Positions 14,233-46,121 of a stretch of DNA of 64,000 nucleotides are shown here, piece by piece. This stretch comes from a virus. The stretch covers positions 1 to 64,000 of IMG/VR virus record IMGVR_UViG_3300046355_000213. The stretch is one strand, 5' to 3'. The notes under the pieces are model-generated. The model saw only the letters and a program-made list of their open reading frames with translations. It had not been told where the DNA came from and did no database searches. Every line of letters starts with the position of its first letter. Within the stretch, counting starts at the first letter, position 1. Both the position numbers and the translations under genes were made by a program.

Positions 14233-15369
14233 ATGTACAAAAAAGAAATGGCTAAGAAAATTAAACAGACAACTGCAGAAGTAAGAAAGATCAACACCTC
14301 CTTGATAGGTAAGGAAGAAGTATTCAGAATGTTAAGTTTGGCAGAAGCTACCAGCTTGCCCTTATTATTGGAAGGCCCTCCGGGTGTAGCTAAGACCAAA
14401 GCGGTTATTGACTATGCTAAAGCATACTTGTTGAAAAGTGGTAAGGCTACCGAAGATGATTTCATGAGCAAAATCTTTATCCTGGAAACAGATGAAGGCA
14501 CTAAGCAATCAGAGATCAAAGGTATGCCTGATTTTGACAAGCTTTTCACGCAAAACAAGTATGAGCTCTTTGCTCCTATTGCCAATGCAGAGGTAGTGAT
14601 TATCAACGAGGTGGACAAAGCCAGTTCTGCTATCCGTAACGCGATGCTGGGTGTTATGGCAGAGAAGTTTCTTTTCTCTGGTAAACACAAGATCAAGTGT
14701 AACTGGAAACTCTTTGTAGGTACTTGTAATGAAATCCCTAAAGATGAGGTAGACTCTCCTTTCTGGGACCGTTTCATGCTGAAGATGGGCGTATCCCGTG
14801 TAGGTGCCGGTGAAATGGCTAAGTACTACAAGCAGGGAGACAAAGCCTATATCCAGGATATTAACATCAATGTGCCTTCTGTGGCTGAGATGGGCTCTGT
14901 GGCAGTGAGCACCAACAAGGTGGAGAAGTTTCTGGACGTAGGTTATACATCACTGTCTGACCGTACCCTGACTTTCGTACCTAAGTTGACTAAAGCAGTC
15001 AGCTATATCTGGGACTGCTCTGTTGACAAAGCATTGATCAAGGTAGCAGATATCATGATCGGCAATGGTGCAGGTACCAAGCTTGGTGAGAAGCTGACAT
15101 CTACTGAGATGAAGGTGATCTTTAACAAAATTGAGTTTCTTAAGAGCCACAATGAAAAACGTCAGCTTGACCTGGCAGTAGCCGAGATTGAGATGATGGT
15201 ACAAGGTTATGCTTCCAAAAACCTCCTTGACCAGGAGCAAATTGACGAGCTACAAACAACACTCCAGTACATGCTCAATGCACATCCGGCTAACAACCAG
15301 GGAGACATTGATGAAGAGATCCTGGAAGAGTTGATGGACGTAGACGTTGCAGATGCATCACCATTTTAA
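14233..15369 (+). CDS. MoxR-type AAA+ ATPase
   Basis: Walker A is GPPGVAKT (residues 48-55) and Walker B is VVIINEVD (121-128), with NE in place of DE. Sensor and lid segments follow: FVGTCNEIPKDE and the SFWDRF-type arginine segment (DSPFWDRFM). This is the MoxR clade of AAA+ proteins, which act with a VWA-domain partner encoded next door, as in RavA-ViaA; here the VWA gene begins 8 bases after the stop. Alternative start ATG 14248 (MAKKIK). Presumed role: ATP-driven assembly or remodelling of a protein or metal-enzyme complex during infection. Confidence 0.85.
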   Translation: MYKKEMAKKIKQTTAEVRKINTSLIGKEEVFRMLSLAEATSLPLLLEGPPGVAKTKAVIDYAKAYLLKSGKATEDDFMSKIFILETDEGTKQSEIKGMPDFDKLFTQNKYELFAPIANAEVVIINEVDKASSAIRNAMLGVMAEKFLFSGKHKIKCNWKLFVGTCNEIPKDEVDSPFWDRFMLKMGVSRVGAGEMAKYYKQGDKAYIQDININVPSVAEMGSVAVSTNKVEKFLDVGYTSLSDRTLTFVPKLTKAVSYIWDCSVDKALIKVADIMIGNGAGTKLGEKLTSTEMKVIFNKIEFLKSHNEKRQLDLAVAEIEMMVQGYASKNLLDQEQIDELQTTLQYMLNAHPANNQGDIDEEILEELMDVDVADASPF

Positions 15370-15377
15370 TAAACAAC

Positions 15378-17084
15378 ATGGCTAAGAGACAATATACCAA
15401 TGTGTATACCATCTTGGACAAAGCCAGAAAAGGGGAGCTGGAGCTGCAAGATCAGCCCAGCACCCTTTTTAAAGCTGTAGTCCCTTATAAGCGGCCTGAT
15501 ATTATCAAGCCTTCTGTGCATTACCTGGATGAAAAAGTTATTAACCGCTACGTGCACAATCACGTAATGAACACAAATAACCTGCAAAAAGTACAGACAC
15601 ATCTAAGTCATATTGGTGTACATAAATCTACCAATGAGATTATGAGTGATTTGAGTGACATCATACACAAGTTTCCCAAAGGACTTAAAAATGACATCTT
15701 TAACTTGTTTAACAAAGACGTAAGTGATTTAACCTTTACGGACCGTGGAGAAGACAACAAGATGCGCTACAAGTTCATTGAGAAAGCCAATCAACCGGTG
15801 CACAAAATCATGACCAAGGGCTCTAATGCCAAAAGCCTCATCTTTACCCAACACGTAATGGAGTACTTCACCCGGGTGATGCTCATGCAAAAGTATAAAG
15901 ATGAAGAGAAGTTTGAGCAAATGCAGCAGCAAATGCAGCAGGAAGTAGAGATGTGCATGAATCCTCAGCCAGGTTCCGGACAAGGAAAGCCCGGTCCTTC
16001 AGGACAGCAGCCTCCGCAACCACAGCCCCAGGAGCAGCAACAACCTCAGGACAGCAATGATCCAGGAGATGAGCAACCAGGTGAGTCAGAATCTCAGGAT
16101 CCTCAAGATCAGTCTGGTAACAATGACTCGGGTCCTTCTCAGTCTAATGAAGCAAACGGTGGTAATGGTGCCAGTAAAGGTGGTAATACCCAGGATAATA
16201 CAATGACAGAAAAGCAGCTGGATAAAATGCTCAATGACATGCTTAACAAGCGTTCTAAGGACTTAGATACTTTGATGAACCAAGCTCAGGCAGCCTGTGA
16301 AATGCTGGATGAAGCTCATAGTACTGAAGAACAAAACAGTCTTTGGGAAGACGCTCAAAGAGGAGATGCTGCTGGAAAATCACTGGACGTACAAAAGATC
16401 CAAGAACTGGCTGCACAACTTAAGACCATGAAGATGGCCATGGGTAGTGTGAAGCAGTTTATTAAGAAGATCATGGATAACAGTGTAAGCTATTTCTCTG
16501 CTAAGGAGCAAAGCACCTATGAACCATTGCTTGAGTCCGGTCACATAGACCAGGTACAGGATGTGTATATGCTTCACCCTAAGCTTAGAAAATTCATGAT
16601 GGATGATATCATGGTCAAAGAAACTAAGCGCATAGGTAAGATCAACCTATACATTGACAACTCAGGGTCTATGAGTAGTTCCTGTGGCGCTCAGGATGAA
16701 GAAGGTAACTATATTCAACGCCTGAACTTTGCCAAGGGCTTTGCCCTGAAGATGCTGGAAATGGATCTATTGGCTGAAGTCTTTATTTTTAATGACCATG
16801 TAGTAAAACGCAAGACAACTGTGTCTGACATTGCAAAGATTAACTGCAGTGGTGGAACAGATACTAGCAATATGGTAAGACACATTAAAAATTCAGGCAA
16901 GAACGCTATTGTTATTACAGACGCCACAGACAGGTGTGATATATACTCCGACAAAGCTTATTTCATAGGCACAGAAGGAGCAACATTTCATGGTTTTTCT
17001 AACCTGGATGAATACAAACACCAAATGTGTGTCTTTGATGGCAGAAAAGTGAGAAAAGTAGACTCTAATGGGTATGCTGTATAA
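15378..17084 (+). CDS. VWA-domain protein, MoxR partner
   Basis: 568 residues. The N-terminal 170 residues are helical; about 180-285 is a Gln/Pro/Gly/Asn-rich disordered linker; a coiled region follows; and a von Willebrand A domain occupies the last 150 residues. The MIDAS is complete: D427-N-S429-G-S431, T494 in SGGTDTS and D515 in VITDATD. The layout (helical N-part, low-complexity acidic linker, C-terminal VWA) is that of CoxE/CobT/ViaA-like partners of MoxR ATPases. A strong terminator closes the operon right behind it. Confidence 0.85.
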   Translation: MAKRQYTNVYTILDKARKGELELQDQPSTLFKAVVPYKRPDIIKPSVHYLDEKVINRYVHNHVMNTNNLQKVQTHLSHIGVHKSTNEIMSDLSDIIHKFPKGLKNDIFNLFNKDVSDLTFTDRGEDNKMRYKFIEKANQPVHKIMTKGSNAKSLIFTQHVMEYFTRVMLMQKYKDEEKFEQMQQQMQQEVEMCMNPQPGSGQGKPGPSGQQPPQPQPQEQQQPQDSNDPGDEQPGESESQDPQDQSGNNDSGPSQSNEANGGNGASKGGNTQDNTMTEKQLDKMLNDMLNKRSKDLDTLMNQAQAACEMLDEAHSTEEQNSLWEDAQRGDAAGKSLDVQKIQELAAQLKTMKMAMGSVKQFIKKIMDNSVSYFSAKEQSTYEPLLESGHIDQVQDVYMLHPKLRKFMMDDIMVKETKRIGKINLYIDNSGSMSSSCGAQDEEGNYIQRLNFAKGFALKMLEMDLLAEVFIFNDHVVKRKTTVSDIAKINCSGGTDTSNMVRHIKNSGKNAIVITDATDRCDIYSDKAYFIGTEGATFHGFSNLDEYKHQMCVFDGRKVRKVDSNGYAV

Positions 17085-17544: not shown

Positions 17545-18840
17545 CTACAGCCCTAACTTGGTGCCTATCTGTAGCATGATGCCTAAAGACTCACCACTAA
17601 GTAAAAACTTTAATCCGGTGTTTATCTTAAAGCGTTTTGTCAGATACACATCTGCTCCTGAACCAACAATGTAACTCAAACTCCCTGACTCCATTAACTT
17701 TCCTTCCTGGGTAGAATACTGCAGTGTAGATCCTGCAATATAAATCTCAGGAGATAAGCTGAGTCGCTTATTAATGGGTGTAGGCCGGGTATAAAACACC
17801 AGCAGGTTATTAGATAATGAAAGATTGCCTTCCATAGGCATAACTGTGAATGTGTAGTTAGCCCCGGCCACTCCCCATTTATCCAGAGGCTGAATATGGG
17901 CAGCCGTTAAAAAGCCCAACTGATTACCAAACATACTAGCCACTGTAACACCATAATTGGTGATACCAGAAACATTCCCCTCATCAAAATGCAGCTTGGT
18001 GTATCTGCCCGATATGGCAAACTGTTGCAAATTACTCCAGATCATACTGGATAAACCCCAACTCATGTCTCCCATCATGGAAGACTGGGACATACTCATT
18101 GAAGTAATGATAGATATATTCTCTTCCACCCCGGATACAGTCAGGTCTGAGTTATAAACCATAGGGTTTAACTTAGCCTGAGCTTTAGAAGAACTTTTAC
18201 CCGGTTTAGAACTTTCCTTCTTACTCTCACTCTTACTCTCACTTTTCTCCTCTGATTTAGACGAACTTTCTTCACTTTTAGACGAACTGTTAGACGAACT
18301 TTCACCTGAACTACCTGACTCTGAGCTACTTGAGCTGCTAGAATTAGATGAACTTTGTGAAGAATTAGACGTACTTGTAGACGAACTTGCTGTCGTAGTG
18401 GACGCAGAGGCTGCACTTGATGCAGCCGAACTCGCAGCGCCTGATGCCGCAGAACTTGCGGCTGAAGTGGCAGCTGACGTAGCAGCGGAAGTTGCAGCAC
18501 TAGTTGCTGCTGCTGTAGCCGCTGCCGTGGCCTGTGCTGTGGCCTGAGAAACAGCTTGAGTGACCGCCTGGGTGACGACTTGAGTAACTACCTGCGCTTG
18601 AGGGCAAGGGTAGTTACTGGTCATCCTGTTTAGCCAGGAATCAAACTCCCCACTGATGATATTATCTCCCGTTACGGTACGGAAGACACCCCTATAAACA
18701 ATAGTGACTGTCCCATTTTTAAGTGGAACAGTCAATACGCTTACCTGCCCGGTGCAGGGATCAACATAAGTATGTGTGATAACCTGTGCCTTAACAGATA
18801 ATGATAATATTACCAAAAGCACACAGAGTACATACTTCAT
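17545..18840 (-). CDS. Serine/alanine-rich outer-membrane-type protein
   Basis: 431 residues. A Sec signal peptide ends ...SVKA-Q (residues 1-19), obeying the Bacteroidetes Q-rule. About 85-220 is extreme low complexity: VTQAVTQ repeats, then Ala/Thr/Ser, then pure Ser, then Ser/Glu/Lys. The last 200 residues are beta-rich, with alternating amphipathic strands and a final strand ending IGTKLGL, as in a small outer-membrane barrel. Last gene of the CsgG-containing operon. It could be a secreted or surface-tethered product of the CsgG-like channel or a barrel partner. No named family recognised. Confidence 0.65.
   Translation of the reverse strand: MKYVLCVLLVILSLSVKAQVITHTYVDPCTGQVSVLTVPLKNGTVTIVYRGVFRTVTGDNIISGEFDSWLNRMTSNYPCPQAQVVTQVVTQAVTQAVSQATAQATAAATAAATSAATSAATSAATSAASSAASGAASSAASSAASASTTTASSSTSTSNSSQSSSNSSSSSSSESGSSGESSSNSSSKSEESSSKSEEKSESKSESKKESSKPGKSSSKAQAKLNPMVYNSDLTVSGVEENISIITSMSMSQSSMMGDMSWGLSSMIWSNLQQFAISGRYTKLHFDEGNVSGITNYGVTVASMFGNQLGFLTAAHIQPLDKWGVAGANYTFTVMPMEGNLSLSNNLLVFYTRPTPINKRLSLSPEIYIAGSTLQYSTQEGKLMESGSLSYIVGSGADVYLTKRFKINTGLKFLLSGESLGIMLQIGTKLGL
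18170..18590 (-). repeat. Low-complexity Ser/Ala coding repeat
   Basis: Degenerate short repeats such as GACGAACT in the + reading (complement encodes Ser-Ser runs) fill this part of the preceding gene. The tract changes composition in steps from Gln/Ala through Ala/Ser and Ser to Ser/Glu/Lys, which suggests growth by slippage. Confidence 0.7.
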
Positions 18841-18842
18841 TG

Positions 18843-19559
18843 TTACTTTGCAAATATCTTCTTCTTGATCATACGCACCAGTATCCTGCTTGTAGCAGTT
18901 TCCAGGGCTTTCTTGGTTGTAATACCAATAGTTGACTGATTAAATTTAACTTCAGAGAGGTTAGCATCATTAAGCAGTGTTGCTTCCCGTATTGTCTTTG
19001 CTTCTCCTAGCCCGGAACCGGTGAAATACTCCCCTGTTTCGGCGTTGACAAACTTGACCTGCATCCCTAAACGGGTAACTACAGTTTGTTTGACACCGTC
19101 TTTGATGGAGATACTCTCATCCTCTGATACAGAAAAATCATATACCTCAATGTAAACAAAGTAGTGTGCCAGTCTGATCTTGCCCCGGCCATCTAATTTG
19201 TCCTGGGTGATCCCAGACTGAGAAGCCTGGAACTGCTTGACCATACGGTTCTTAATCTCTGCTTTGTCCTCTGTAAAGGTAAACCTGCCGGTCTCTTCCA
19301 AGAACTCAATTACAATGTTGGTAACGCCTAAGCCTACCCGCTTGTCTTTAAGCTCAGGATACGCCGCATATACCTCATCATTGATACCTAAAGACAGTAA
19401 CTGTACTGGAATGGTTGGACCATCATAGTCCATCAGGGAGTCAATGTTGATCTTCTTTTCAAAACCAGCAGTGTAGCTCTCTGTCTTAGTAGTAGCTACC
19501 TGGGCTGCAGACACAAAAGTGTGCATTACTAATGCACAGATTAGCAGATACCTTACCAT
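18843..19559 (-). CDS. CsgG-like outer-membrane secretion protein
   Basis: 238 residues with a signal peptide (…FVSAA-Q, Q-rule). The CsgG/HfaB family pattern follows: KRVGLGVTNIVIEFLEETGRF (about 73-93) with the family's TGRF, then IRLAHYFVYIEVYDF, GMQVKFVNAETGEYFTGSG (the strand pair that forms the pore in CsgG) and a C-terminal helix ITTKKALETATSRILVRM. In curli systems CsgG makes a nonameric outer-membrane channel that exports curli subunits. Unlike E. coli CsgG there is no lipobox cysteine. It sits between two other envelope genes in one operon, so it probably exports or anchors a neighbour. Confidence 0.8.
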   Translation of the reverse strand: MVRYLLICALVMHTFVSAAQVATTKTESYTAGFEKKINIDSLMDYDGPTIPVQLLSLGINDEVYAAYPELKDKRVGLGVTNIVIEFLEETGRFTFTEDKAEIKNRMVKQFQASQSGITQDKLDGRGKIRLAHYFVYIEVYDFSVSEDESISIKDGVKQTVVTRLGMQVKFVNAETGEYFTGSGLGEAKTIREATLLNDANLSEVKFNQSTIGITTKKALETATSRILVRMIKKKIFAK

Positions 19560-19861
19560 TTTGGAGCCTCTTCTAACTCTTCCTTAGCTGTTTTAGCTTT
19601 AGGCTTAGCCGGAGCTGCTGCCGGTGCAGGGCCTGCACTCTTGTTGATGATCACCGTTTGAGGTGCAACTGCAGGTGCCGCTGCTGCCTGGTTGATGTTA
19701 ATCACCGGAGCTGGCGCTGTTGTAGCTGCCGGAGCTGCTTCTTCAGTCTCTCCTGTTAATTGTTTTGTTACATAACCACCTACACCTAGTGCAATGGTAC
19801 TAGCCAGGCCAATTAAAATGCTCTTCAAAGAGCCACCTGTGTTTTCTGCTTCTTCAGACAT
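19553..19861 (-). CDS. Single-TM protein with Ala/Pro-rich tail (102 aa)
   Basis: An acidic N-terminus is followed by one hydrophobic helix (about residues 12-34, SILIGLASTIALGVGGYV) and then a 65-residue Ala/Pro tail ending in Lys/Glu. No signal peptide, so this is probably an inner-membrane protein with the tail in the periplasm, long enough to reach toward the envelope partners. Overlaps the start of the CsgG-like gene by 7 bases, indicating coupled synthesis. Confidence 0.55.
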   Translation of the reverse strand: MSEEAENTGGSLKSILIGLASTIALGVGGYVTKQLTGETEEAAPAATTAPAPVININQAAAAPAVAPQTVIINKSAGPAPAAAPAKPKAKTAKEELEEAPKW

Positions 19862-19868
19862 AATAGTA

Positions 19869-20228
19869 TTAGTTTATAATTAAGGGTTTCTTCACGGTGT
19901 TACCTGCAATATCCACCAGCACCAGGTCATACATGCCTTTGCTTAGTGTATCCAGGTTAATGGTCTTGATAGTAGCTGCCTCTGTAGCAGTGAAACCAAC
20001 AGTCTTTACAGATTCGGTATTTCCGAACTTGTAGATCTGGATGGAGTACTTAGCTCCTACCGTTGTGTTGGCTACAATAGTTGTTGACTTACCTACAGTC
20101 TGAATAGAGGTGATGGCTGTGTTTGCAGACTCAGTACCCAGCTCAATCTTGCGGTCCAGTACTTCTATTTCCTGGCAGGCAAAAACAAAGATTAAGCATA
20201 GTACAATCAATAATGTTATCTTTTTCAT
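19869..20228 (-). CDS. Lipoprotein with beta-sandwich, T9SS-tail-like (119 aa)
   Basis: The signal peptide ends in a lipobox, VFA-C18, followed by QEIE, so the mature protein is a lipoprotein. Residues after Cys with acidic character are compatible with surface export in Bacteroidota. The C-terminal 65 residues (YSIQIYKFGNTESVK ... INLDTLSKGMYDLVLVD ... KPLIIN) look very like the beta-sandwich of type IX secretion sorting tails (Por_Secre_tail pattern L-GMY...L--D...-K-LI-). I see this by pattern only. It lies between the cohesin-like gene and the TM protein in the envelope operon. Confidence 0.6.
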   Translation of the reverse strand: MKKITLLIVLCLIFVFACQEIEVLDRKIELGTESANTAITSIQTVGKSTTIVANTTVGAKYSIQIYKFGNTESVKTVGFTATEAATIKTINLDTLSKGMYDLVLVDIAGNTVKKPLIIN

Positions 20229-20229
20229 A

Positions 20230-21996
20230 TTAGAAGTTGTTATAGCCTGTAAGCTTGATAGCGTCTGTAGAAAGATTGATGCCTAACTGGTAGCCTGTCT
20301 TAGACGCGGCGTCCATATTCGGCGTGACTTTGATATAGGTATTAATGTCCAGTGGATTACCAATGGCACTAAACCTAAGTTTAAATGGAGTAAGCTCACC
20401 CGTAATCGGATTTTTGACTTCTTTGTCAATAGCACCAAATCTTATTCTCCCTGGCTTATTGTCCACAAAGGTGAACCAGGTGTTAGGAAACTCATTGAAC
20501 AGTTGCTCAAACTTGATCTTAGCCGGATCATAAGTAAACTCAAACTGCAGTGCCGCTACACTGCTGGCACCGGTGTTGATCTTAACAGGTATATCAATAG
20601 TGCTCGAAGTTACTGTAGTCCCTTTGAGACTTACATCTATAGAAGGTACAGGCATAGCTGTGTTGATCATGATGTTAGCCGTAGGTGACGCTGCTATGCT
20701 CTTCTTTAAAGAAGGGATGGCATTGGTAGCAATAGAACCGTTAATCATGACCTGGGAAGAGTGTGAGCGGTTGATATCTCCTGGTAAAAGGAACTTCATC
20801 TTGATGCGCAGGTTTTTGCCTATCTCCTGAGTTTTGAATGAAACATAATTGTTAGCAACATCTTTCCAGTTTGCTGCCTTCATATTGTTATACGTACTGT
20901 CAGTAAATGTAGGTACGCTCATGTACATATCTGTACCTGACCTGTATTGTGCTGGCAGCTTTAATAAACTGTCCACGCCTACTGTTTGTGCAAAAAGACG
21001 CACCAGGTCACCTCCGTCAAACTTACGGTTACGGTTAATATCCGCTGCGTAGTACCCGGCCCCTGTAATAATACTCTGGCCTTTAAATGTACCATCCAGG
21101 TTCTGTGTATTAAACTCAGCCTGAGCCGTAGTATAATCACTTACCGTAACAGCACTCTTGATCAGGTCTACCATAGAATCCATGTTCACTAATAACCGGG
21201 CATGGTAGACTGTATTAGGCTTGAGTAAAGTCTGGTCTACCGGAATAGAGCCGTCTGACAATGCGTCTACTAAGATCACCTGGTTTGTGGCACTATCGGT
21301 AAGGGCTACGCGGTGTAAAGTAAAGTTATCAATGTTGGCATTGGTCTCAATGGAAGCAGTGATATACTTGGATGCTGTTGGATCAAGCATGATGACGTTA
21401 GCCAGTGGTGCGGTCATCAGTGTACTGCCATCTGTACCGTTTTGGTTATAAGCCGCCACAAAGTTCAACTTAATAGGGTCAAAAGTATACCCCGGAGCGG
21501 TGGTTTTAAGTTTAAAGCGCAGCTTTAGTAATACATCTTTACCTACAGCGCCTTGTGCAATAGCCCAGTTTAAATATACACGTAAAATAGTTCTTGGACC
21601 GTTACTAGTGTATGAGTAGTTTGCATACTGGTACTTTACATTACCATTGGTAGAGTTATTCAGCTGCGTATTAACATAAGTGTAACCCGGATAGATATTA
21701 TGACTCATAGAGATCTGTGAACCATACGGAAGAATACCTCCATTGCCTCCTGTTCCGGTGTGATTAACACTTAGAAACTCAAATGCTGTGTTGGTGAACT
21801 CAAAGTCAAAGTACAAAGAGCGCGCGGAAGTATTATTATTACCGTCTGCATATACAGGTACTTCAAATGTATCTCCCTTGTTGATCACATCACCTGCAAT
21901 ATTGGTATTGGTAGGGGCATCCGGAAAATAAAACTTCATCACCTGTGCAGATGAAGTGTAACTGATCAACAATACAAACAGCAATAGTTTTTTCAT
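20230..21996 (-). CDS. Secreted cohesin/dockerin-like protein (588 aa)
   Basis: Signal peptide ...SYTSSA-Q (Q-rule). Residues about 37-200 have a cohesin-like opening (GDTFEVPVYADG...SLYFDFEFTNTAFEFLSV). A dockerin-like calcium loop follows at about 313-331 (AADINRNRKFDGGDLVRLF) and a second partial one near 404 (PGDINRSHSSQV). The C-terminal 135 residues are a clearer cohesin-type domain (TIDIPVKINTGASSVAALQF, DPAKIKFEQLF, GRIRFGAI, LRFSAIG). Cohesins and dockerins bind each other in cell-surface assemblies, so this could be a self-assembling or scaffold protein. Domain names are by pattern; structure prediction would be needed to be firm. Confidence 0.7.
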   Translation of the reverse strand: MKKLLLFVLLISYTSSAQVMKFYFPDAPTNTNIAGDVINKGDTFEVPVYADGNNNTSARSLYFDFEFTNTAFEFLSVNHTGTGGNGGILPYGSQISMSHNIYPGYTYVNTQLNNSTNGNVKYQYANYSYTSNGPRTILRVYLNWAIAQGAVGKDVLLKLRFKLKTTAPGYTFDPIKLNFVAAYNQNGTDGSTLMTAPLANVIMLDPTASKYITASIETNANIDNFTLHRVALTDSATNQVILVDALSDGSIPVDQTLLKPNTVYHARLLVNMDSMVDLIKSAVTVSDYTTAQAEFNTQNLDGTFKGQSIITGAGYYAADINRNRKFDGGDLVRLFAQTVGVDSLLKLPAQYRSGTDMYMSVPTFTDSTYNNMKAANWKDVANNYVSFKTQEIGKNLRIKMKFLLPGDINRSHSSQVMINGSIATNAIPSLKKSIAASPTANIMINTAMPVPSIDVSLKGTTVTSSTIDIPVKINTGASSVAALQFEFTYDPAKIKFEQLFNEFPNTWFTFVDNKPGRIRFGAIDKEVKNPITGELTPFKLRFSAIGNPLDINTYIKVTPNMDAASKTGYQLGINLSTDAIKLTGYNNF

Positions 21997-22541
21997 TTCA
22001 GAAGTTTAGTTACAAGTGAGTTACAAGACTTTTTGATAGCCGTAGATAAATTTGTATTGTTAAATTTTCCTCCCTGATCAATGAGTAGTGCAGCCATAGA
22101 GACTTCCTCTGCTGACTCTTCTACCATAACTGTCTTAACCACTTTACCCTCTTTAATTAATTTTCCCTTCATTCTCACCACCACAGCTTCTGTGTTCTTA
22201 TGAAAAACAGAAAGACTACTTTGTGTCTTGAGCACATCTAAATACAAGATCTCTACTTCAACTTTGGTTGTAGCATAAGGGTTAAGTATGTAATCCTCTG
22301 AGACAAGCTCTTCCAGGATATTCTTTACTCCAAATTCCAGGTTGCGGTTACCGGCCATCTGGCCCATCACTACCTTGTTACTGATACTGCCTATGGCAAT
22401 ACTCTCATCTGACCTTAAGACCATCTCCCTTGCTTTCAAAGGATTGGTTAAAACCATATACGTCCAGTAAGTCTGGACAGTCATGCCTGTTCCTACTATA
22501 AAGGAAACGCACCACAAGGTGATTGTAAATAATATCTTCAT
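21993..22541 (-). CDS. Second, shorter CsgG-like protein (182 aa)
   Basis: N-terminal hydrophobic segment (residues 3-20), uncleaved or a signal. Then NLEFGVKNILEELVSEDYIL aligns with GLGVTNIVIEFLEETGRF of the downstream CsgG-like protein; VEVEILYLDV with VYIEVYDFSV; and KFNNTNLSTAIKKSCNSLVTKLL with KFNQSTIGITTKKALETATSRIL. It therefore seems to be a reduced paralogue of the CsgG fold, possibly lacking the long pore hairpin. First gene of the envelope operon, starting 33 bases beyond the lysis-cassette stop and overlapping the cohesin-like gene by 4 bases. Confidence 0.55.
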   Translation of the reverse strand: MKILFTITLWCVSFIVGTGMTVQTYWTYMVLTNPLKAREMVLRSDESIAIGSISNKVVMGQMAGNRNLEFGVKNILEELVSEDYILNPYATTKVEVEILYLDVLKTQSSLSVFHKNTEAVVVRMKGKLIKEGKVVKTVMVEESAEEVSMAALLIDQGGKFNNTNLSTAIKKSCNSLVTKLLK

Positions 22542-22710: not shown

Positions 22711-23574
22711 TTATGCGGTTAGTAGATGGTAGTATTCTTTGAAGTGCTTGATTCTATCTGGCAAACCTATGGTCCCGCCGTTTACACGTTTTGTAACGGC
22801 AGTAACAGTAGCCACATCTGATCCTTTATCACAGATGACCCACAGCTTGTTTGAATTAAAAAAGAATGCAGCTGAAGCCAGTGCATACTTAGTAGCTACC
22901 AACTCAGGATCTGCTACAATGTTCTCAGGAACAGTAGCATCAAAACGTGTGTAGTTCTCCTTACCGGTAAGTTGGATAAATCCTCTTCCGCGAAACTTGT
23001 ACCCGTCACCCGATGTCTCCGGACCATTGCCCATTCTGCCCGCATATACCCGGTTAGCAATCTTCTCTGGCTTACGCTCATAGTTGACTGCAATCTGGCC
23101 ATTGGGAAAGTATTTCTTGAAAATACCCATAAGCCCCTTAGCAGAGTAGTTAAGATTTTCCCGTGTTGCTTTAAAGCCTCCTGACTCATGGCCGCATTGT
23201 GCCAGAAAGTGTGCCAGACGTAAAGGTGTAGTAATACCAAAGCGGGCAGCAGTATCCGGTATCTGTGCAATCACATGATCCGGTATATGGCCTTTAAGCT
23301 TTTCCAGTTTAAAACCACTGTTAGTAGGTATAGTCACTGACGGTGCAGGAGCTGTCTGAGCAGCAACAACTGCAGAAGGCACTGGAGTGCCTGCACTAAA
23401 CATTTTACCCCAGGTACCCTCTCCCACAATACCATCAGCTGTTAGACCATGGGCAGATTGCCAGGCTTTAACCGCTTCTTCAGTCTTAGGACCAAATTTA
23501 CCAATAACGTCAACACCTAAAAGTGCCTGGAGCTTCTTTACATCTTCTCCTTCTGAGCCTCTTCTTAGTAGCAT
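22711..23574 (-). CDS. Endolysin: PG-binding domain plus GH19 catalytic domain
   Basis: 287 residues. Residues 1-62 are a peptidoglycan-binding domain of the PG_binding_1 type (GSEGEDVKKLQALLG ... FGPKTEEAVKAWQ ... DGIVGEGTWGKM), followed by an Ala/Pro linker to about 95 and a GH19 chitinase-like lysozyme domain. Catalytic Glu is E130 in CGHESGGF; other family blocks are ENLNYSAKGLM, YAGRMGNG, and GYKFRGRGFIQLTG. GH19 endolysins cleave the glycan strands of peptidoglycan. There is no signal peptide, so release needs the holin-like protein encoded upstream. Confidence 0.9.
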   Translation of the reverse strand: MLLRRGSEGEDVKKLQALLGVDVIGKFGPKTEEAVKAWQSAHGLTADGIVGEGTWGKMFSAGTPVPSAVVAAQTAPAPSVTIPTNSGFKLEKLKGHIPDHVIAQIPDTAARFGITTPLRLAHFLAQCGHESGGFKATRENLNYSAKGLMGIFKKYFPNGQIAVNYERKPEKIANRVYAGRMGNGPETSGDGYKFRGRGFIQLTGKENYTRFDATVPENIVADPELVATKYALASAAFFFNSNKLWVICDKGSDVATVTAVTKRVNGGTIGLPDRIKHFKEYYHLLTA

Positions 23575-23804: not shown

Positions 23805-24434
23805 TTACTTTTTTTTGTTGAGGTTTATTTTCCAGTATGACTCCACACCATAGGAGACTTGTCCCAAGGTATTAACCTGTGTGGAGATACCGTACAACTG
23901 GTCTTTCTTGGTCTTGTATACAAAACCCGCCTTGGCTCCAGTAATTCCAAGAGTGTTGTTGATATTAATACCACCGCCTACATAAAGCTGACGCTTAGGC
24001 TTGGCATAATTGTTAATGGTTGTATTCTTAGTGACTACAGGAATCATGTAATCATGTCTGTACTTACGCTTAAGAAGCTTATTCTCCTGCACTGTATCTG
24101 TGATAGACAGGTAACCAAAGTCATCTATCTTTACACTGTCAGAGTATACCCTCTTCAGGATAAACAGCTTAACTAAAGCATCATACTGTGCTTTAAGTGC
24201 AGGATAGTTTGTATCTGCAATGTACTCTGGCTTAGAGGCTACTGGTACTTCAATCTCTTTTAGTACCGGCACTTCCCTAACTACCAGGTGATCCTTGGGC
24301 TTACGCCAGAAAGTATCAACAACTACAGTGGTGTCGGATTTTGGCGTGTCATCACTGTGTGAAGAACACTGTCTTTGAAAAAAAAGTGTACCTACCAGAG
24401 CAATGATGACCAGTCCGGATAGTTTATCCTTCAT
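23805..24434 (-). CDS. Spanin-like membrane/periplasmic protein (209 aa)
   Basis: One N-terminal TM helix (residues 4-18, LSGLVIIALVGTLFF) and a periplasmic region with a central helix, ending in beta strands (LYVGGGININNTLGITGAKAGFVY, GVESYWKINL) like a small barrel or outer-membrane contact domain. A TM anchor plus periplasmic span beside holin and endolysin genes is the hallmark of Bacteroidota phage spanin-position proteins. Start set at ATG 24434 (MKDKLSG), which overlaps the holin gene by 11 bases; an upstream ATG gives an odd extra N-terminus. Confidence 0.6.
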   Translation of the reverse strand: MKDKLSGLVIIALVGTLFFQRQCSSHSDDTPKSDTTVVVDTFWRKPKDHLVVREVPVLKEIEVPVASKPEYIADTNYPALKAQYDALVKLFILKRVYSDSVKIDDFGYLSITDTVQENKLLKRKYRHDYMIPVVTKNTTINNYAKPKRQLYVGGGININNTLGITGAKAGFVYKTKKDQLYGISTQVNTLGQVSYGVESYWKINLNKKK

Positions 24435-24732
24435 CGTCTTCTGGTTCTGGTGTATACTTAGAAGGATCATCTTCCTTCTTTGTCTTCTTGCCCATCACAT
24501 TCTCTACACCAGAGATGCCAAAGCAACCCAGTACGATAATAGTGAATGCATTAAACACATAGTCGTTGATGACAAGCTCCTTGCCCATTGCACCTGTTAC
24601 CAGGTCAACGCCTACTACAATACACATTACTACAAAAGCAATAAAGCCAATGATGGACTTTTCATTCCAGTCATTGTCATCTTTAAAGATGCTGAAAAAT
24701 GAACTCTTAGGTTCTTCAATGATATGTTTCAT
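24424..24732 (-). CDS. Holin-like membrane protein (102 aa)
   Basis: Two hydrophobic helices (about residues 25-46, IIGFIAFVVMCIVVGVDLVTG, and 55-77) separated by a short loop, with a charged acidic tail. This is the topology of phage_holin-like proteins. It is placed directly upstream of the spanin-like and endolysin genes, supporting a role in membrane permeabilisation at lysis. Confidence 0.7.
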   Translation of the reverse strand: MKHIIEEPKSSFFSIFKDDNDWNEKSIIGFIAFVVMCIVVGVDLVTGAMGKELVINDYVFNAFTIIVLGCFGISGVENVMGKKTKKEDDPSKYTPEPEDDEG

Positions 24733-25028
24733 TTGGTCTTAGGGGTTAGTCTGTTATCAGGGAGTATAGCCACCATTTCATACTTAAGCGGCTTGGAGTC
24801 TTTATCCGGAGGGTTAGGTAATTCTAAGGATACAATAGAGGCGTTTTTATATACCATGCGCTCCAGGTTGTCAATGCGCGTCTTGTCAATGCTGCTCTGA
24901 GTCATCAGGGCTTTGACATCCTGCTTTATTTCGCGGATGTCAGCATACACTAACATAATGAAGCCAGATAGTACTGTCGGAAATAGATACGACTTAATGG
25001 CTCTTAGAGGGTCATTAGCAGGAGACAT
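24729..25028 (-). CDS. Single-TM protein in lysis cassette (99 aa)
   Basis: One TM helix (about residues 13-31, LFPTVLSGFIMLVYADI), then a short coiled coil (REIKQDVKALMTQSSIDKTRIDNLERMV) and a polar tail. Similar to small accessory or antiholin-type proteins of Bacteroidota phages. Overlaps the holin gene by 4 bases. Confidence 0.55.
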   Translation of the reverse strand: MSPANDPLRAIKSYLFPTVLSGFIMLVYADIREIKQDVKALMTQSSIDKTRIDNLERMVYKNASIVSLELPNPPDKDSKPLKYEMVAILPDNRLTPKTK

Positions 25029-25059: not shown

Positions 25060-25620
25060 TTACTCTTCGCTTCCAGGAGTGATCACAACACTGATCTGAG
25101 CAGTTGTACTTCCACCTGCATTAGTTGCCGTGATAGTATGTGTAGTTGTTCCCACGTTTGCCGTAGGCGTACCAGAGATTACACCAGTTGTAGTGTCTAA
25201 GCTTAATCCTGCAGGCAATGCCGGAGCCACAGCGTATGAATCCACCGTTCCTGTTACCACAGGGCTTACAGGTGTGATAGCTGCATTCTGTGCTGATGAT
25301 GCAGGGAAGTTATAGCTCAATGCCGAAGGTGCAGCAAGAGCAGTTCCTATAATCACTTTGAACTCATAGACCTGACCTGCAGGCTTCTTTGTACCTGAGA
25401 TTAAACTGTTAGGGATAATAGACCCGTCTGCTCTCTTTCTTACAAAGAAACGTAAGCCTGAAGCTGAAGGAGATACCTTTTGGCCAGCTAAGGCCACATA
25501 GTTTTTAGGCTGGATCTCCACCAAATTAGCAGTAGGTGCTTGCTTAAATCCCATAAGCGTACCTAAAATAGGATAGCCATCCTGGGTCTTCTGAGCAAAA
25601 TATTTTAATACAGTTGCCAT
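25060..25620 (-). CDS. Ig-like domain protein, possible virion decoration (186 aa)
   Basis: Residues 1-95 are a beta-rich domain (YFAQKTQDGYPILGTLMG, NYVALAGQKVSPS). Residues about 100-183 form a He_PIG/cadherin-like Ig domain with its typical block PALPAGLSLDTTTGVISGTPT and a terminal TAQISVVITPG strand. No signal peptide, so this is more likely a virion protein (head or tail decoration that sticks to surfaces) than a secreted one. First gene of the minus-strand late block. Confidence 0.65.
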   Translation of the reverse strand: MATVLKYFAQKTQDGYPILGTLMGFKQAPTANLVEIQPKNYVALAGQKVSPSASGLRFFVRKRADGSIIPNSLISGTKKPAGQVYEFKVIIGTALAAPSALSYNFPASSAQNAAITPVSPVVTGTVDSYAVAPALPAGLSLDTTTGVISGTPTANVGTTTHTITATNAGGSTTAQISVVITPGSEE

Positions 25621-40334: not shown

Positions 40335-43300
40335 TTATTGTATCCGTATTCCCCACTCTTTACGGAAGTCATCATCAAAGATGGCTGTCATCTGTACAAC
40401 CTCTTTGGTTATAGGCATAAGCCTAAATAAATATTTCAAAGGTCTGGCTTCATCTGTTGTCTCAGAGTCGCCTGTAGCTACTCCCCAACCTTGCTTTAAC
40501 GTAGCTCCCAAGAATCTCTGGGTGTCCTCTGCCAAACTAATAATAGGCAAAGGAGACTTGATCAGGTTGGTAAACTCAATAGGGTTGTAGTAGAAGGCAA
40601 ACTCGTTGTAGTACTTAGACAAAGCCCTGGCTGTGTACTTGCGGATACCCGTGTACTCATCCATCTCATCATCATCTCCTGGTTTAACAGCCATGAGCAT
40701 CATGTAAAAAGCAATAAGAATCATGACCTCTCTGATGGCACTCTTTAAGTTACCAATGTGCATGTCAATGAATTCCGCTTCTGTGATGTTAAACTCCTCC
40801 CCATTTGCATAAGCATCTGCTTTCATGATGTGGTATCTGGCTTTAGCAGCCGCAATAGCACCATCCGAACCAAAACCTAATACAATACCTTTAAGCAACT
40901 GCCCGGCTCTTACGCTGAATAGCTCACCCATTAAACTGTTGAGCTTACCATATTGGTAAACATCCAGGTCACCGTCCTTGTAGAGGTTACCAAATCTTTC
41001 CTTAGCCATAGCCGGGATCCAGCTACGGAACTGCATCAGGGCCATGCCCCAGCTGTTGGTACGGATCAAATTGATGTCATCACTGGTAGAGTTACCAATG
41101 ATAGTCTTAGCTGCTTTTTTAACAGCGGCCCGGAACTTCTCTGAGTTCTCACTGCCCATGTCTACGCCAGGAATGGTCAGCTCATCATTTTCAATCTTGG
41201 CAGTGGCAAATAAACTCTTCTCTTGCTTGAGCTTGGCAATTTGTTCCTCCAACTTAGCTTTGAACTCTTTACGCTCAGCAGCCGGTAAGTTATAAAACGT
41301 ACTGTAGTTCATCTGGTCTTTCACATAGTTAGTGATGTTGACCAAATTACCACTTTCATCTACCATAAAGTTCTGCATCATGGCAATGGCCAGCGGGTTC
41401 TGTACGGCTTTGTCTGCAATACGCTGGAACACATACATGTTATCCAAACTAAAACTAGCTACTGCTTTAGATACAGAGAGCTTATTACCCTTGTTACGCT
41501 TACCGTCTTCCAGTAGCATATCAAAGTAGTCCAGCATAGCAATAGCTTTACTGTCTCTTTTGGTATACAGGTACATGGACTTAACCCAGTCGTCATTATT
41601 CATAACTACTTTCTTGGTACCCAATAAGAACGCGTTACCCGTACCACCTACAAACTGGGCAGAACCTGATAAAGGGTTTAGGGCTAAAGTCTTTAAGCTA
41701 AAGAAGCCCAGGATAAACTGTAGAGACTTCTGTGCAGAGAACGTCTTGCCAAACATCTTGACCTTTACGTCAAACTGTTCACCTGTACGTCTGTTGTACA
41801 AATAGAAATTAGTAAAGTCCTGCAGGATCTTGGCATTACGCTCATTACCCGGCTTGGTGTCAAGCTCTCCGTTAGGAAGTCGCTTACCTTCATTAAACAA
41901 GTTGGTGACAATACTCTCTTTGTTACGCTCCGCTGTGTTTAAGACAAACACGTCATCCTCCAAAGAGCTCATGCCCTCGTAGTTGTACATGTGACCACCC
42001 CAGATAGAGAATACTTTAAACAAGTCCTTGCTCTTTCTGTCGTAGTTTGGAGTAAGACCTCCATCATCTACACCGATGTCACGGGTAAAGTATACCGGCA
42101 CGCGGTTAAGTACCTCTCCTGTAACAGGGTCCTGGTCTGGAAAATACTGTGAGCCAGAGTCAATAGCCAGCTGCTCAAAGAAGTCACCACCGGCAAACAT
42201 TCCTTTGTTCATACCTCCAAAGACTAACTGATCCAATTTACCCTTGAACATAGATGGTATGAACTCCGGAGAGTACTCATCTATCATACCCAGGCGTTCT
42301 GCATGTCTGATCGTAGACTGGAAATACTTGTATGCCTCCATAGCAGGCTCGTTGCCTTTAGCACTAAGCTCTTTCCAACCGGCACTATGCCACTTGGCAC
42401 TAGGCTTTAAGAAATTATTCTTAGGGTTCAGGTATCCGTCCTGGTTAGGCTTACCCTCTTCATCTAAAATATTATGAGTATCTACCCATTTGTAGAAAGC
42501 TTTAGACACTGCTTCGGCATTAGCCTTCTCATCTGTCATAAACTTAGCCTCCTTGTAATACTCTAGTTTACGGGCTCTCTCCTTCTCATAGCGCTCACCG
42601 TCAAACTCCGTGTTCTCTGCAATCCACTTCCAGTCTCCTGTACGGATGGCCTGGTCACGCTGCCTGTAGAATTCACTGTCGTATTTTTTCAGGAAGTTAC
42701 CTGTCCACTTGCCGAGTTTAAAGTCCAGCATGATGTCAAATAACTTATCTCCCGTAATGCCTTTCTTTTTACCCCACTGCTCCAAAGCGTCTTTGTGCTT
42801 GTGAAGTTCTGTCATCATTTTGTTGAAGTCAGCATCGCGCTTGTTCTGCACGTTTCTAAGCATCTTGTAGAAAGTCTGTATGGCTTTAGTATCCAGCTGA
42901 GACAAAGAGTTAAATGTACCGGCTAAAAAGCTTACACCCTTCTCTGACTTCTCAAAGTTCTCTATACCCATACGCTGTGCAATAGAGCTGGCAATCTCTG
43001 TCAGGTTCTCTTCTACCTCCTCAAGGGTAGCTGCAGCATCGGCAGTCATTTGCTTATATACATCTGAGAGTTCTTTGAGGGCTTCAATGTCCTGCGTATT
43101 ACCAGAAGCAATGATATCGCGGTTGTAATCTGCAATGATCTTATTGATGATACCACTGGTAGAACTGAACACAGATAAAGTATCCAGGGCTGTGCGGATA
43201 TCCCTAGGAGTTAGGGCGTCATTGAGCATTAGCTCCCTGATACGGGCAACCTCAGTGTTACCCAGCTCAATAAACTTGTCAATAGATCCTCTTAGCTCAA

Positions 43301-46121
43301 GGTCACGGATAGCATCACGGTAGCGCTTAAGTTCTTCTTTTTGCTTGAACTTCTCTGCTGCCTTGAACTTCTTTTGCTCAATACGCTTATAGATACCGTC
43401 CAGCTTCTTGATCAACTTGTCCAGGTTCTTGTCTCCTGTAGTTTCATCTACAGATACTGGTAACAGGTAGTTTTGGTCATCCGGTATCATAGCCGGGTTG
43501 AAGTCACCAATCTCAATATTTTTCAGCTCCAGGTTGTCTATCTCATTCTTGGCATTCTTTAGGTACACATACTGGGTACGGATAGGAATAGCTCTTACTT
43601 TACCAAACTTGTTGAAGCCGTAGTGCTCCCTTAAGATACGCTTGTATTCTCCCAGCTGTATGCGGTAAGCCTGAGGCTTAAAGTCCTTGATCTCTGTCTG
43701 GAACTTGGCAATCTCCTGGCTCTTCCAGTCATAGATCTCTACTACTCCGCTTGTGGGAATCACGAGCAAGTCAATAGAACCTGCCATGTCAGCCTTAGGA
43801 TCGTAGATCTTTACCTCCTTCATGAACATGGTACCTACAGGATATGAACCAATCAGCTGCTCAAAGTAGCCATCTAACTTTTTCATGATCTCTGTACCTG
43901 CTGCTGCATGAACAACGGGTTGCTTGGCGTCACGCACAAGACCGGTAGCCGGATCAATATACGCCTCATAGATACTCTCCATCATTAAGTGGATAGCATC
44001 ACCGAACTCTGCCTTTAGAAGGTCAAGTTCCTTCTGGCGCTCATCTCTGCGGTCATTAGGGAATATCTTCTTGTAATACGCGTCTACCTTAGCCGTAGTC
44101 ACAGAGGTCTTCACCGGCCTGCCATCATGTTTATAGATGTGGCGCTTTTGCTTAGTCACCGGATCAATAGAGTTATCCAGGATAAGTCTGTTCTGCTCTT
44201 GCTTAAGTAAGTCTATACTACTTGCCAAAGAGAAGTAAATACCTTCCTCGGCATTGATTGATCCAAGATTACTTGTATCTGCAGAGCCGATCTGCTGTGC
44301 TGCTGCAGCAAAAGGATTGTCCTCAGCTTTTCTAAAAGTGTCTGTGATAATCTTCCATACTTTCTCCCACCAGGAAGCAAGCTTGGTGATTTTCTCCTGA
44401 GTCTCATTAGCAGTGTTGCCCTTGATGATATGCTCACTGATCACCTGGCCAATAGCTTCTTTCTTTAACTTAGTAAAGTTTACAGACCCATCCGGGTTTC
44501 TGTACTCTGGCAGGTTCTTGTATAGCTCTACTATTTCACGGTACAGTTGATAAGACGTGATGTCATTCATCATCTGCTTCATCAGCGGGTGATTATCTCC
44601 CAGCATGTTCACAAAGAAGTGAGCTGCCTCCTCTCCTAGTGTCCTGGCGTCCATAGAGCCCTCTGTGACCTGGATAATGCGGTTAAGCATGTCAGCCTTC
44701 GCATTGGCACTGATCGGCTGTCCTGAGGCATCTGTGATGCTGTCAACCGTTTCCACGCTTACCCCTATCTGGGATAAAAAATTTAGTACTTGTTGCTGGA
44801 GTTCCTGCTCTGAAGCCTGAGGGCTTGCAAAGAATTCATCCGGCAGGTTATCTTGCTGAGAGTCTTGTTGAGCCTGGAAGAGTTGGTACTGCTCTTCATC
44901 CTGCATAAGCTGCTCGGTAGTCTTACGGAAGTCTTCTAATATATTAGTAGCCACCGCATACGCCTGACCATAAAGGGCATTAGACTCAGTAATACCAAAA
45001 AGTCCCAGGATATAATCAAACAACTGGTCAAAGATATTGGCGTATTCTTTCTCTCCGGGTTTAGCTGGGATCTCCAGCAGCTGCTTTACAAACTTACCGT
45101 CTGTGAATATACCTACTATGAATTCATCCAGGTCTCTTAGGGCATAGTTGCCTTCACCGGTCTCATCATTATAACCTCCCAGCTTTTCTTTGGCGTAGTC
45201 AAACAAGTTCGTCAAAGCAGTAACTGCCTCGCCATTACTCTTAAGCTCATGGTAAGTCAGACTGTGCAGGATCTCATGGATAATAGTAGGCTCAGAGCCT
45301 GCTCCACGGAATTTAGAGTCCTGGTTAATAAAGATCTCATTAGTGCCTGGGTAGAATATACCTGCAGCGGTCATACCCCTGGCTTGTAAAGCAGGATGAC
45401 TGCCTGGTACCAGGGTAATCTTTACGTCATTAAGCTTAGCATAAGACATTAACTGTCCTGCCAGTTTATTTAAGGGATGGCCGCTGTCTGCAATCTTTTG
45501 CAAGACCTCAGTAGAACGTGTCTCTGTGCTTTCTGTAAAATACTTACGTCCCACGTTAGCATCCTGGGTATTCTTAGCCAGGGCTTTATTAAACACAAAG
45601 ATCTTGTATCCTGAAGGCGTCTGTCTTACCATAAACTTATAGTAAGGACTGCGGTTCAGGCTTGCTATCCGGTCATTGGTCTGCTTGATCTGCTCAGGCG
45701 TGCTGTACTTGACAAAACTGATCTGGCCATACTGGTTGATAAGGTTGAACTTCTTGTACAGGGCCTCATTGCCTTTTAAAGGCATTGGCATCTCAGCTGC
45801 ATTTTGATCCATGAAAGACTTCATAGCAGCATAACTAGGCTCACCATTGGTGTCCATGCCTTCTGTTAATTGTCCTTGGATAGAAGCTAAAGTCACTTCA
45901 TCAATGCCAGAGTCATTAAGCTGTGCTTTGATGGGACGTTCCCAGTCACCAAACCAGGACTTAAAATCATCTGTATAGGCAACTGCCCAGGCGTCTAAAG
46001 CTTCATCCTTATCAGGCATTACCTGGTTAAGGTCAGCAAAGAGCTGGGACTCGTTACCATTTGGTGCCGTCACTTTACTGACAGCACCGGTATTATCTCT
46101 AAATATGTGACATGAAGCCAT
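40335..46121 (-). CDS. Giant polyvalent virion-type protein with zincin and PD-(D/E)XK domains (1928 aa)
   Basis: N-terminal residues include FKSWFGDWERP, a pattern common in phage polyvalent proteins. A complete zincin follows: H282-EIL-H286 in THEILHSLTYHEL, with a supporting Glu region (FIVGIFTDGKF). A second, degenerate site is EEAAH at 497-501. Residues about 705-830 are a PD-(D/E)XK nuclease: GDAIH (707-711), D784 in AGSIDLL, EIYDWK (795-800) and QLGEYKRIL. Long coiled coils follow, and the C-terminal 500 residues include hydrophobic stretches (ILGFFSLKTLALNPLSG). Such proteins are packaged and injected, and act on host DNA or proteins early. Lies 18 bases after the 4560-residue gene. 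Confidence 0.8.
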   Translation of the reverse strand: MASCHIFRDNTGAVSKVTAPNGNESQLFADLNQVMPDKDEALDAWAVAYTDDFKSWFGDWERPIKAQLNDSGIDEVTLASIQGQLTEGMDTNGEPSYAAMKSFMDQNAAEMPMPLKGNEALYKKFNLINQYGQISFVKYSTPEQIKQTNDRIASLNRSPYYKFMVRQTPSGYKIFVFNKALAKNTQDANVGRKYFTESTETRSTEVLQKIADSGHPLNKLAGQLMSYAKLNDVKITLVPGSHPALQARGMTAAGIFYPGTNEIFINQDSKFRGAGSEPTIIHEILHSLTYHELKSNGEAVTALTNLFDYAKEKLGGYNDETGEGNYALRDLDEFIVGIFTDGKFVKQLLEIPAKPGEKEYANIFDQLFDYILGLFGITESNALYGQAYAVATNILEDFRKTTEQLMQDEEQYQLFQAQQDSQQDNLPDEFFASPQASEQELQQQVLNFLSQIGVSVETVDSITDASGQPISANAKADMLNRIIQVTEGSMDARTLGEEAAHFFVNMLGDNHPLMKQMMNDITSYQLYREIVELYKNLPEYRNPDGSVNFTKLKKEAIGQVISEHIIKGNTANETQEKITKLASWWEKVWKIITDTFRKAEDNPFAAAAQQIGSADTSNLGSINAEEGIYFSLASSIDLLKQEQNRLILDNSIDPVTKQKRHIYKHDGRPVKTSVTTAKVDAYYKKIFPNDRRDERQKELDLLKAEFGDAIHLMMESIYEAYIDPATGLVRDAKQPVVHAAAGTEIMKKLDGYFEQLIGSYPVGTMFMKEVKIYDPKADMAGSIDLLVIPTSGVVEIYDWKSQEIAKFQTEIKDFKPQAYRIQLGEYKRILREHYGFNKFGKVRAIPIRTQYVYLKNAKNEIDNLELKNIEIGDFNPAMIPDDQNYLLPVSVDETTGDKNLDKLIKKLDGIYKRIEQKKFKAAEKFKQKEELKRYRDAIRDLELRGSIDKFIELGNTEVARIRELMLNDALTPRDIRTALDTLSVFSSTSGIINKIIADYNRDIIASGNTQDIEALKELSDVYKQMTADAAATLEEVEENLTEIASSIAQRMGIENFEKSEKGVSFLAGTFNSLSQLDTKAIQTFYKMLRNVQNKRDADFNKMMTELHKHKDALEQWGKKKGITGDKLFDIMLDFKLGKWTGNFLKKYDSEFYRQRDQAIRTGDWKWIAENTEFDGERYEKERARKLEYYKEAKFMTDEKANAEAVSKAFYKWVDTHNILDEEGKPNQDGYLNPKNNFLKPSAKWHSAGWKELSAKGNEPAMEAYKYFQSTIRHAERLGMIDEYSPEFIPSMFKGKLDQLVFGGMNKGMFAGGDFFEQLAIDSGSQYFPDQDPVTGEVLNRVPVYFTRDIGVDDGGLTPNYDRKSKDLFKVFSIWGGHMYNYEGMSSLEDDVFVLNTAERNKESIVTNLFNEGKRLPNGELDTKPGNERNAKILQDFTNFYLYNRRTGEQFDVKVKMFGKTFSAQKSLQFILGFFSLKTLALNPLSGSAQFVGGTGNAFLLGTKKVVMNNDDWVKSMYLYTKRDSKAIAMLDYFDMLLEDGKRNKGNKLSVSKAVASFSLDNMYVFQRIADKAVQNPLAIAMMQNFMVDESGNLVNITNYVKDQMNYSTFYNLPAAERKEFKAKLEEQIAKLKQEKSLFATAKIENDELTIPGVDMGSENSEKFRAAVKKAAKTIIGNSTSDDINLIRTNSWGMALMQFRSWIPAMAKERFGNLYKDGDLDVYQYGKLNSLMGELFSVRAGQLLKGIVLGFGSDGAIAAAKARYHIMKADAYANGEEFNITEAEFIDMHIGNLKSAIREVMILIAFYMMLMAVKPGDDDEMDEYTGIRKYTARALSKYYNEFAFYYNPIEFTNLIKSPLPIISLAEDTQRFLGATLKQGWGVATGDSETTDEARPLKYLFRLMPITKEVVQMTAIFDDDFRKEWGIRIQ

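Follow-up and report, generated by a model that had tools for sequence, protein, structure and literature searches.

Why a virus should build structures on the surface of its host has been a puzzle since phage-borne curli parts came to light in pelagiphages, and to our knowledge nobody knows the answer. The question arises again in IMG/VR virus record IMGVR_UViG_3300046355_000213 (125,034 bases), whose first 64,000 nucleotides are the stretch analyzed here (the window). Six consecutive minus-strand open reading frames at 17545-22541 were read in an initial annotation, made from the sequence alone, as a phage-encoded envelope module attached to a lysis cassette. The analysis supports an envelope module, with a CsgG-fold protein, its short paralogue, a cohesin protein, a lipoprotein, a transmembrane protein and a predicted outer-membrane barrel encoded together. 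The reading we favor, to which we give close to an even chance, is that these proteins would make up a trans-envelope platform, built late, that displays a cohesin/lectin adhesin on the infected, dying cell.

All six reading frames were present. In the 5' to 3' direction of the minus strand, the genes are F (182 amino acids; 21993..22541), E (588; 20230..21996), D (119; 19869..20228), C (102; 19553..19861), B (238; 18843..19559) and A (431; 17545..18840). F and E overlap by 4 bp (21993-21996) and C and B by 7 bp (19553-19559). The annotated layout was confirmed, including the overlapping starts, the lipobox on D and the Q-rule signal peptides on three proteins; those of A, B and E end in AQ, and that Q is invariant across the B and A alignments. 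Using B as a query against IMG/VR contigs returned 247 relatives, and using the version from the cultured Flavobacterium phage immuto returned 113; 80 loci were kept from each. The sample comprised 163 phage-type loci, which are not independent and represent 58 dereplicated lineages. B was found in all 163, C in 157, A in 153, E in ~155 and F in ~148. The order E-C-B-A is constant over these loci and F lies either before E or after A, a difference that maps to a single relocation on the B tree. Such recurrence is far above chance, and the gene set is real and widespread. In immuto, the module corresponds to gp014-gp019, with a C-type lectin encoded by gp013. Module-bearing contigs reach 308 kb, so the module crosses phage lineages. 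The terminase of the window genome matches those of crAss-like phages over 86% of its length at ~25% identity, which makes a distant crAss-like kinship plausible.

The module is practically absent from bacterial genomes. A scan of 84,980 bacterial and archaeal species, performed with two peptide patterns that could miss distant bacterial relatives, gave two matches; both were contigs of metagenome-assembled genomes with phage-like content and carried other genes of the viral loci. When the full profile was applied to 301 genomes of the same bacterial family, the single match was a metagenome-assembled genome already found in that scan. Recent capture from bacteria was rejected on these results. 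By these searches the module is essentially a phage property, and its near absence from bacterial genomes argues that it serves the phage.

B is the most conserved member of the module. Its mean column identity is 61% over 58 sequences, and its mean pairwise identity of 65% compares with 34-47% for F, A, D and E, in sequence sets that differ somewhat. The AlphaFold2 model of B generated from the 58 sequences (mean predicted local distance difference test score, pLDDT, 73) has its elements in CsgG order. Foldseek comparison with the PDB returned CsgG for all of the top 20 matches (best E=1.9e-7, probability 1.00, TM-score only ~0.45), the best being the soluble pre-pore form of CsgG; PelC and LptE were also among the fold matches. 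The CsgG-like assignment of B in the initial annotation was therefore upheld at the level of the fold, but not at that of the sequence. PF03783 (CsgG) had no match in the window genome at E<=10, nor in immuto, whereas it matches the CsgG of pelagiphage HTVC008M at 1.8e-54. The B profile matched no PDB profile, and profile-profile alignment (hhalign) of B with host and pelagiphage CsgG was not significant (3% probability, E=0.014). B also lacks a lipobox Cys at its mature N-terminus, which host CsgG retains, and the CsgG membrane-hairpin motifs GGxGARYFG and FRYVNFQRLLE.E.G.T.NEP, both present in host CsgG, occur in no row of the B alignment. Membership of B in the CsgG family was thus rejected. 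Because the sequence tests, lipobox and hairpin motifs all fail, we place B outside the CsgG family as a protein with a CsgG fold, and it is doubtful that it forms a pore of its own. No Pfam or NCBIfam match to the partners CsgE, CsgF or CsgA/B was found among the six proteins, and the curli-type export channel proposed for B was not supported by these comparisons. F (21993..22541) begins with an N-terminal hydrophobic segment and had been annotated as a shorter CsgG-like paralogue. It aligns with B at 95% probability (hhalign, E=2.4e-8) when the wider F alignment is used, the clean profiles alone giving a weak match, and does not match true CsgG; as judged by profile comparison, F is a short paralogue of B.

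The Ser/Ala-rich protein A (17545..18840), annotated as being of outer-membrane type, is predicted to be a 12-strand outer-membrane β-barrel. Its AlphaFold2 model (mean pLDDT 74) places a small N-terminal domain with two conserved Cys residues after the signal peptide, followed by a helix, a disordered Ser/Ala-rich linker (residues 137-211, pLDDT mostly <50) and the C-terminal barrel (residues 227-430; 17551..18162; 12 main strands; pLDDT ~85-94). The top PDB fold match was FapF (E=3.2e-7), with 6-8% identity in fold alignments. FapF is an amyloid exporter barrel that also stands behind an N-terminal helix and linker, and together with the CsgG fold of B this match would suit a true type VIII (T8SS) or Fap-type export channel, in which B and A make a pore across the outer membrane for the secretion of E or some other product. 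However, KdgM, NanC and PcoB, also 12-strand barrels, match or exceed FapF in target-normalized TM-score when aligned with A, so the FapF match may be generic, and no Pfam or NCBIfam match to Fap partner proteins was found among the six proteins. The features that B lacks and the missing Csg partners count against such a channel as well. The fate of E, described below, bears on it further. C (19553..19861) has, as annotated, one transmembrane segment and an Ala/Pro-rich tail of ~60 residues ending in -PKW. The tail, if extended, would be long enough to span the periplasm. All 157 C homologues end in Trp, which suggests that it is a docking tail.

E (20230..21996) is a secreted protein with a match to Pfam Cohesin PF00963 (E=1.2e-9, 39 bits against a cut-off of 24.1) that is best over residues 465-526 (20419..20604). 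The cohesin part of its cohesin/dockerin-like annotation is borne out by this match; the dockerin part holds only as two dockerin-like Asp/Asn motifs, with weak dockerin matches in a few relatives. Paralogues of E encoded near the module carry Lectin_C or Laminin_G_3 domains. At loci lacking D, the product of the E gene that precedes C has PF18962, the C-terminal sorting domain (CTD) of the type IX secretion system (T9SS), at its end in 35/35 dereplicated relatives; at loci containing D, as in the window, this CTD was found in 0/27 E proteins. TIGR04183 also scored above its cut-off in two of the D-less relatives; immuto is a phage in which it did. D (19869..20228) is a lipoprotein, as annotated, with an invariant lipobox Cys (C18) and a domain resembling the T9SS CTD. 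PF18962 matches nothing else in the 125-kb genome, and on D it scores under its curated cut-off (E=6.1e-4). Homologues of D match PF18962 weakly (9/34 at E<=0.01, best 7.2e-6), and in profile alignment D matches E proteins at their CTD end (90%, E=1.5e-6). Mapped onto the B tree, the D and CTD states change 4 times, with at least 3 changes forced by well-supported branches; the CTD state was assigned here by the absence of D, and the Pfam scan is a separate confirmation on dereplicated sets. Given the 35/35 versus 0/27 exchange, the PF18962 and CTD profile matches and the repeated changes on the tree, D is best read as a lipoprotein bearing a sorting-type domain, which would make the two arrangements equivalent. 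Exchange on at least three branches suggests that selection keeps the surface placement of E. Since E carries the sorting domain in all 35 D-less relatives, it would be exported by the host T9SS rather than by B, and export of the cohesin protein by B was not sustained. E thus has its own route at D-less loci, a further argument against the export channel formed by B and A, which we consider distinctly unlikely.

The module is linked to lysis genes. Immediately upstream of the six-gene block, and also on the minus strand, are the lysis-type genes L, K, J, I and H and the endolysin gene G (22711..23574; PG_binding_1 and GH19; PHROG endolysin, E=5.1e-68). J (24424..24732) encodes a two-transmembrane protein that is holin-like by topology only. 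Among 103 loci with long flanks, an endolysin was found in 76, J in 66 and at least one of them in 90, against a chance rate of roughly 1/7 that is our estimate from locus and genome length rather than a measured background. These counts bear out the attachment to a lysis cassette, from which we infer that the module is probably expressed late. The arrangement varies: the lysis genes may precede F, with the module following G; J may separate C from B, as in one lineage; or I-J-G may come after A. A second two-transmembrane family (GFKDLLN..M..RRW.ITA; for example, L049:7076-7648), likewise holin-like by topology only, occurs in 73 loci and mostly lies between C and B. It is also present in the closest relative, L002, and is not found between C and B in the window, where those genes overlap. 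Three findings go beyond the initial annotation: that relatives have holin-like genes within the module, that D is related to the T9SS, and that the distribution is wide. Interleaving of this kind would fit a device for outer-membrane lysis or lysis timing, in which C and A/B act with holin and endolysin to open or destabilize the outer membrane, and there is precedent, as a hypothesis, in the CsgGF of phage Melnitz (PMC9004378). On the other hand, a lectin/cohesin protein that bears a T9SS sorting domain plays no part in rupturing a membrane, and the diversity of E and its paralogues is unexpected for a rupture machine. In addition, 50 loci carry homologues of I (23805..24470, minus strand), in which an N-terminal hydrophobic segment and four amphipathic C-terminal strands make a better spanin candidate, by layout only; I had no family match in Pfam or PHROG searches and is possibly an unusual spanin. 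A lysis device appears somewhat unlikely.

The localization, complex formation, timing and purpose that we propose for the platform build on the computed gene set and order, the folds of A and B, the F-B paralogy, the D-CTD exchange and the lysis linkage. C would be placed in the inner membrane with its Ala/Pro-rich tail reaching across the periplasm, and B, aided by F, would form a periplasmic CsgG-fold assembly beneath the outer membrane. A would provide the outer-membrane barrel, on the model of PelB/PelC or LptD/LptE. PelC, a CsgG-fold ring, has its barrel in PelB, and LptE has one in LptD; the presence of both of these CsgG-fold partners of separate barrels among the matches to the B model is consistent with a platform. 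E would be the surface-facing cohesin/dockerin/lectin cargo, exported in most relatives by the host T9SS through its own sorting domain; in the lineage of the window, D, a lipoprotein of its own, would carry that domain. The platform would most likely be used around lysis, to mask receptors or to make the cell sticky, with superinfection exclusion, shielding of progeny from debris and capture of neighboring cells as possible benefits. Several points weigh against this interpretation. The window E has no CTD and the window D scores under the Pfam cut-off; the C/B/F/A complex is proposed from structure predictions of A and B as monomers; the late timing is taken from gene linkage; and the extreme conservation of B relative to E does not identify the function served.

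Lectin and Ig-like domains are common on virions, and a Peptidase_S74 gene of tail-fiber type lies ~1.6 kb upstream in one relative (L070). The six genes might accordingly be a tail-fiber or decoration module of the virion mistaken for an envelope system, but we judge this highly improbable. The Sec signal peptides of A, B and E, the lipobox of D, the outer-membrane barrel and the T9SS tags all indicate the host envelope. None of the six proteins falls convincingly in a PHROG tail or other structural family, and the weak tail-fiber matches of A are confined to its low-complexity linker. With the CsgG fold present in B as well, neither outcome that the initial annotation named as refuting it came about.

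Modules encoding CsgG and CsgF have been published for pelagiphages and a methylophage, with hypotheses that range from "sibling capture" to lysis control (PMC7029224, PMC9599517, PMC9004378), and phage-encoded T9SS cargo has been published for Cryophage (PMC7468147) and crAss-BACON contigs (PMC6949934). The statement in the initial annotation that no such phage system had been described holds for the combination of genes, of which no report was found in the open-licence literature, but not for its CsgG-type and T9SS components. The pelagiphage and methylophage curli modules resemble the one described here in having a phage-borne CsgG fold, an operon in a late or variable region and proposed roles in aggregation, superinfection exclusion or lysis. 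They encode true PF03783 CsgG, CsgF and curli repeats, whereas the present module has no PF03783 match or CsgF/A/B and instead has a separate barrel, a tailed inner-membrane protein and cohesin/T9SS cargo. Phage T9SS type A cargo is similar in that phage proteins with sorting domains would use the host secretion system. Published accounts treat such cargo genes as single and variable. In the present module the cargo accompanies the conserved A, B, C and F, and has either its own sorting domain or a separate lipoprotein in its place. The chromosomal curli operon of Flavobacteriaceae (csgE-like, csgF-like, csgG) shares the CsgG-fold protein and the host phylum. Its CsgG, however, is a lipoprotein of ~460-520 amino acids with full hairpin motifs and no significant profile match to B, and is preceded by genes for proteins of ~250 and ~135 amino acids. 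In the Fap system of Pseudomonas, FapF has the same 12-strand layout as A, but no similarity in sequence was seen and Pfam gave no match to any other Fap protein. PelC-PelB and LptE-LptD offer a CsgG-fold protein partnering a separate outer-membrane barrel, with polysaccharide or lipopolysaccharide as cargo, unlike the cohesin/lectin protein E. We tentatively suggest, at appreciably less than an even chance, that the module may be a phage-specific trans-envelope machine without recent descent from curli or Fap. It would have spread across unrelated Bacteroidota phages, from ~125-kb crAss-like to >300-kb genomes, and in it a T9SS-delivered cohesin/lectin would be coupled to three parts: the CsgG-fold assembly, the 12-strand barrel and the inner-membrane protein with its tail. 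Late systems for surface display or release would thereby gain a new class. The module is a second, independent-looking case of phage-borne host-surface parts, in another phylum, and, if read correctly, joins lytic-phage surface modification, hijacking of the host T9SS and lysis, which are usually studied apart. Phage immuto, for which no proteomics paper was found in the open-licence literature, is a cultured representative that allows deletion of the module.

The remaining lysis-type genes include K (24729..25028, minus strand), a small one-transmembrane protein upstream of J with homologues in 22 loci and no Pfam match, and the first gene of the block (25060-25620, minus strand), whose Ig-like product matches He_PIG (2.9e-12) and, weakly, a tail protein. 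Sigma-70-like promoter sites were no more frequent than in shuffled sequence, the Bacteroidota -7 element was absent from every upstream region of the block long enough to scan, and an Rfam search gave no match. Terminator-like sites were commoner than in shuffles, from which no inference was drawn. Two further secreted proteins are encoded near the module in relatives. An Endonuclease_NS nuclease (3.8e-40), which could act on incoming or released DNA, occurs in 22 loci (for example, L047:10265-10888) and is absent from the window genome; a 153-amino acid protein with an IIHESKH motif and no Pfam match, possibly a metalloprotease, occurs in 44 (for example, L128:5157-5621). Elsewhere in the window, the plus strand at 14233-17084 encodes an AAA ATPase (PHROG ATPase, 2.5e-13) and, after it, a protein of 568 amino acids that has what appears to be a metal-binding DxSxS motif; together they resemble a phage-borne MoxR/von Willebrand-type pair. 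The minus-strand gene at 46140-59822 encodes a 4560-amino acid protein that has a Dda-like helicase at its C-terminus (PHROG 325, E=1.1e-71) and otherwise has no PHROG match; the next gene (40335-46121) encodes a 1928-amino acid protein, also without a PHROG match.

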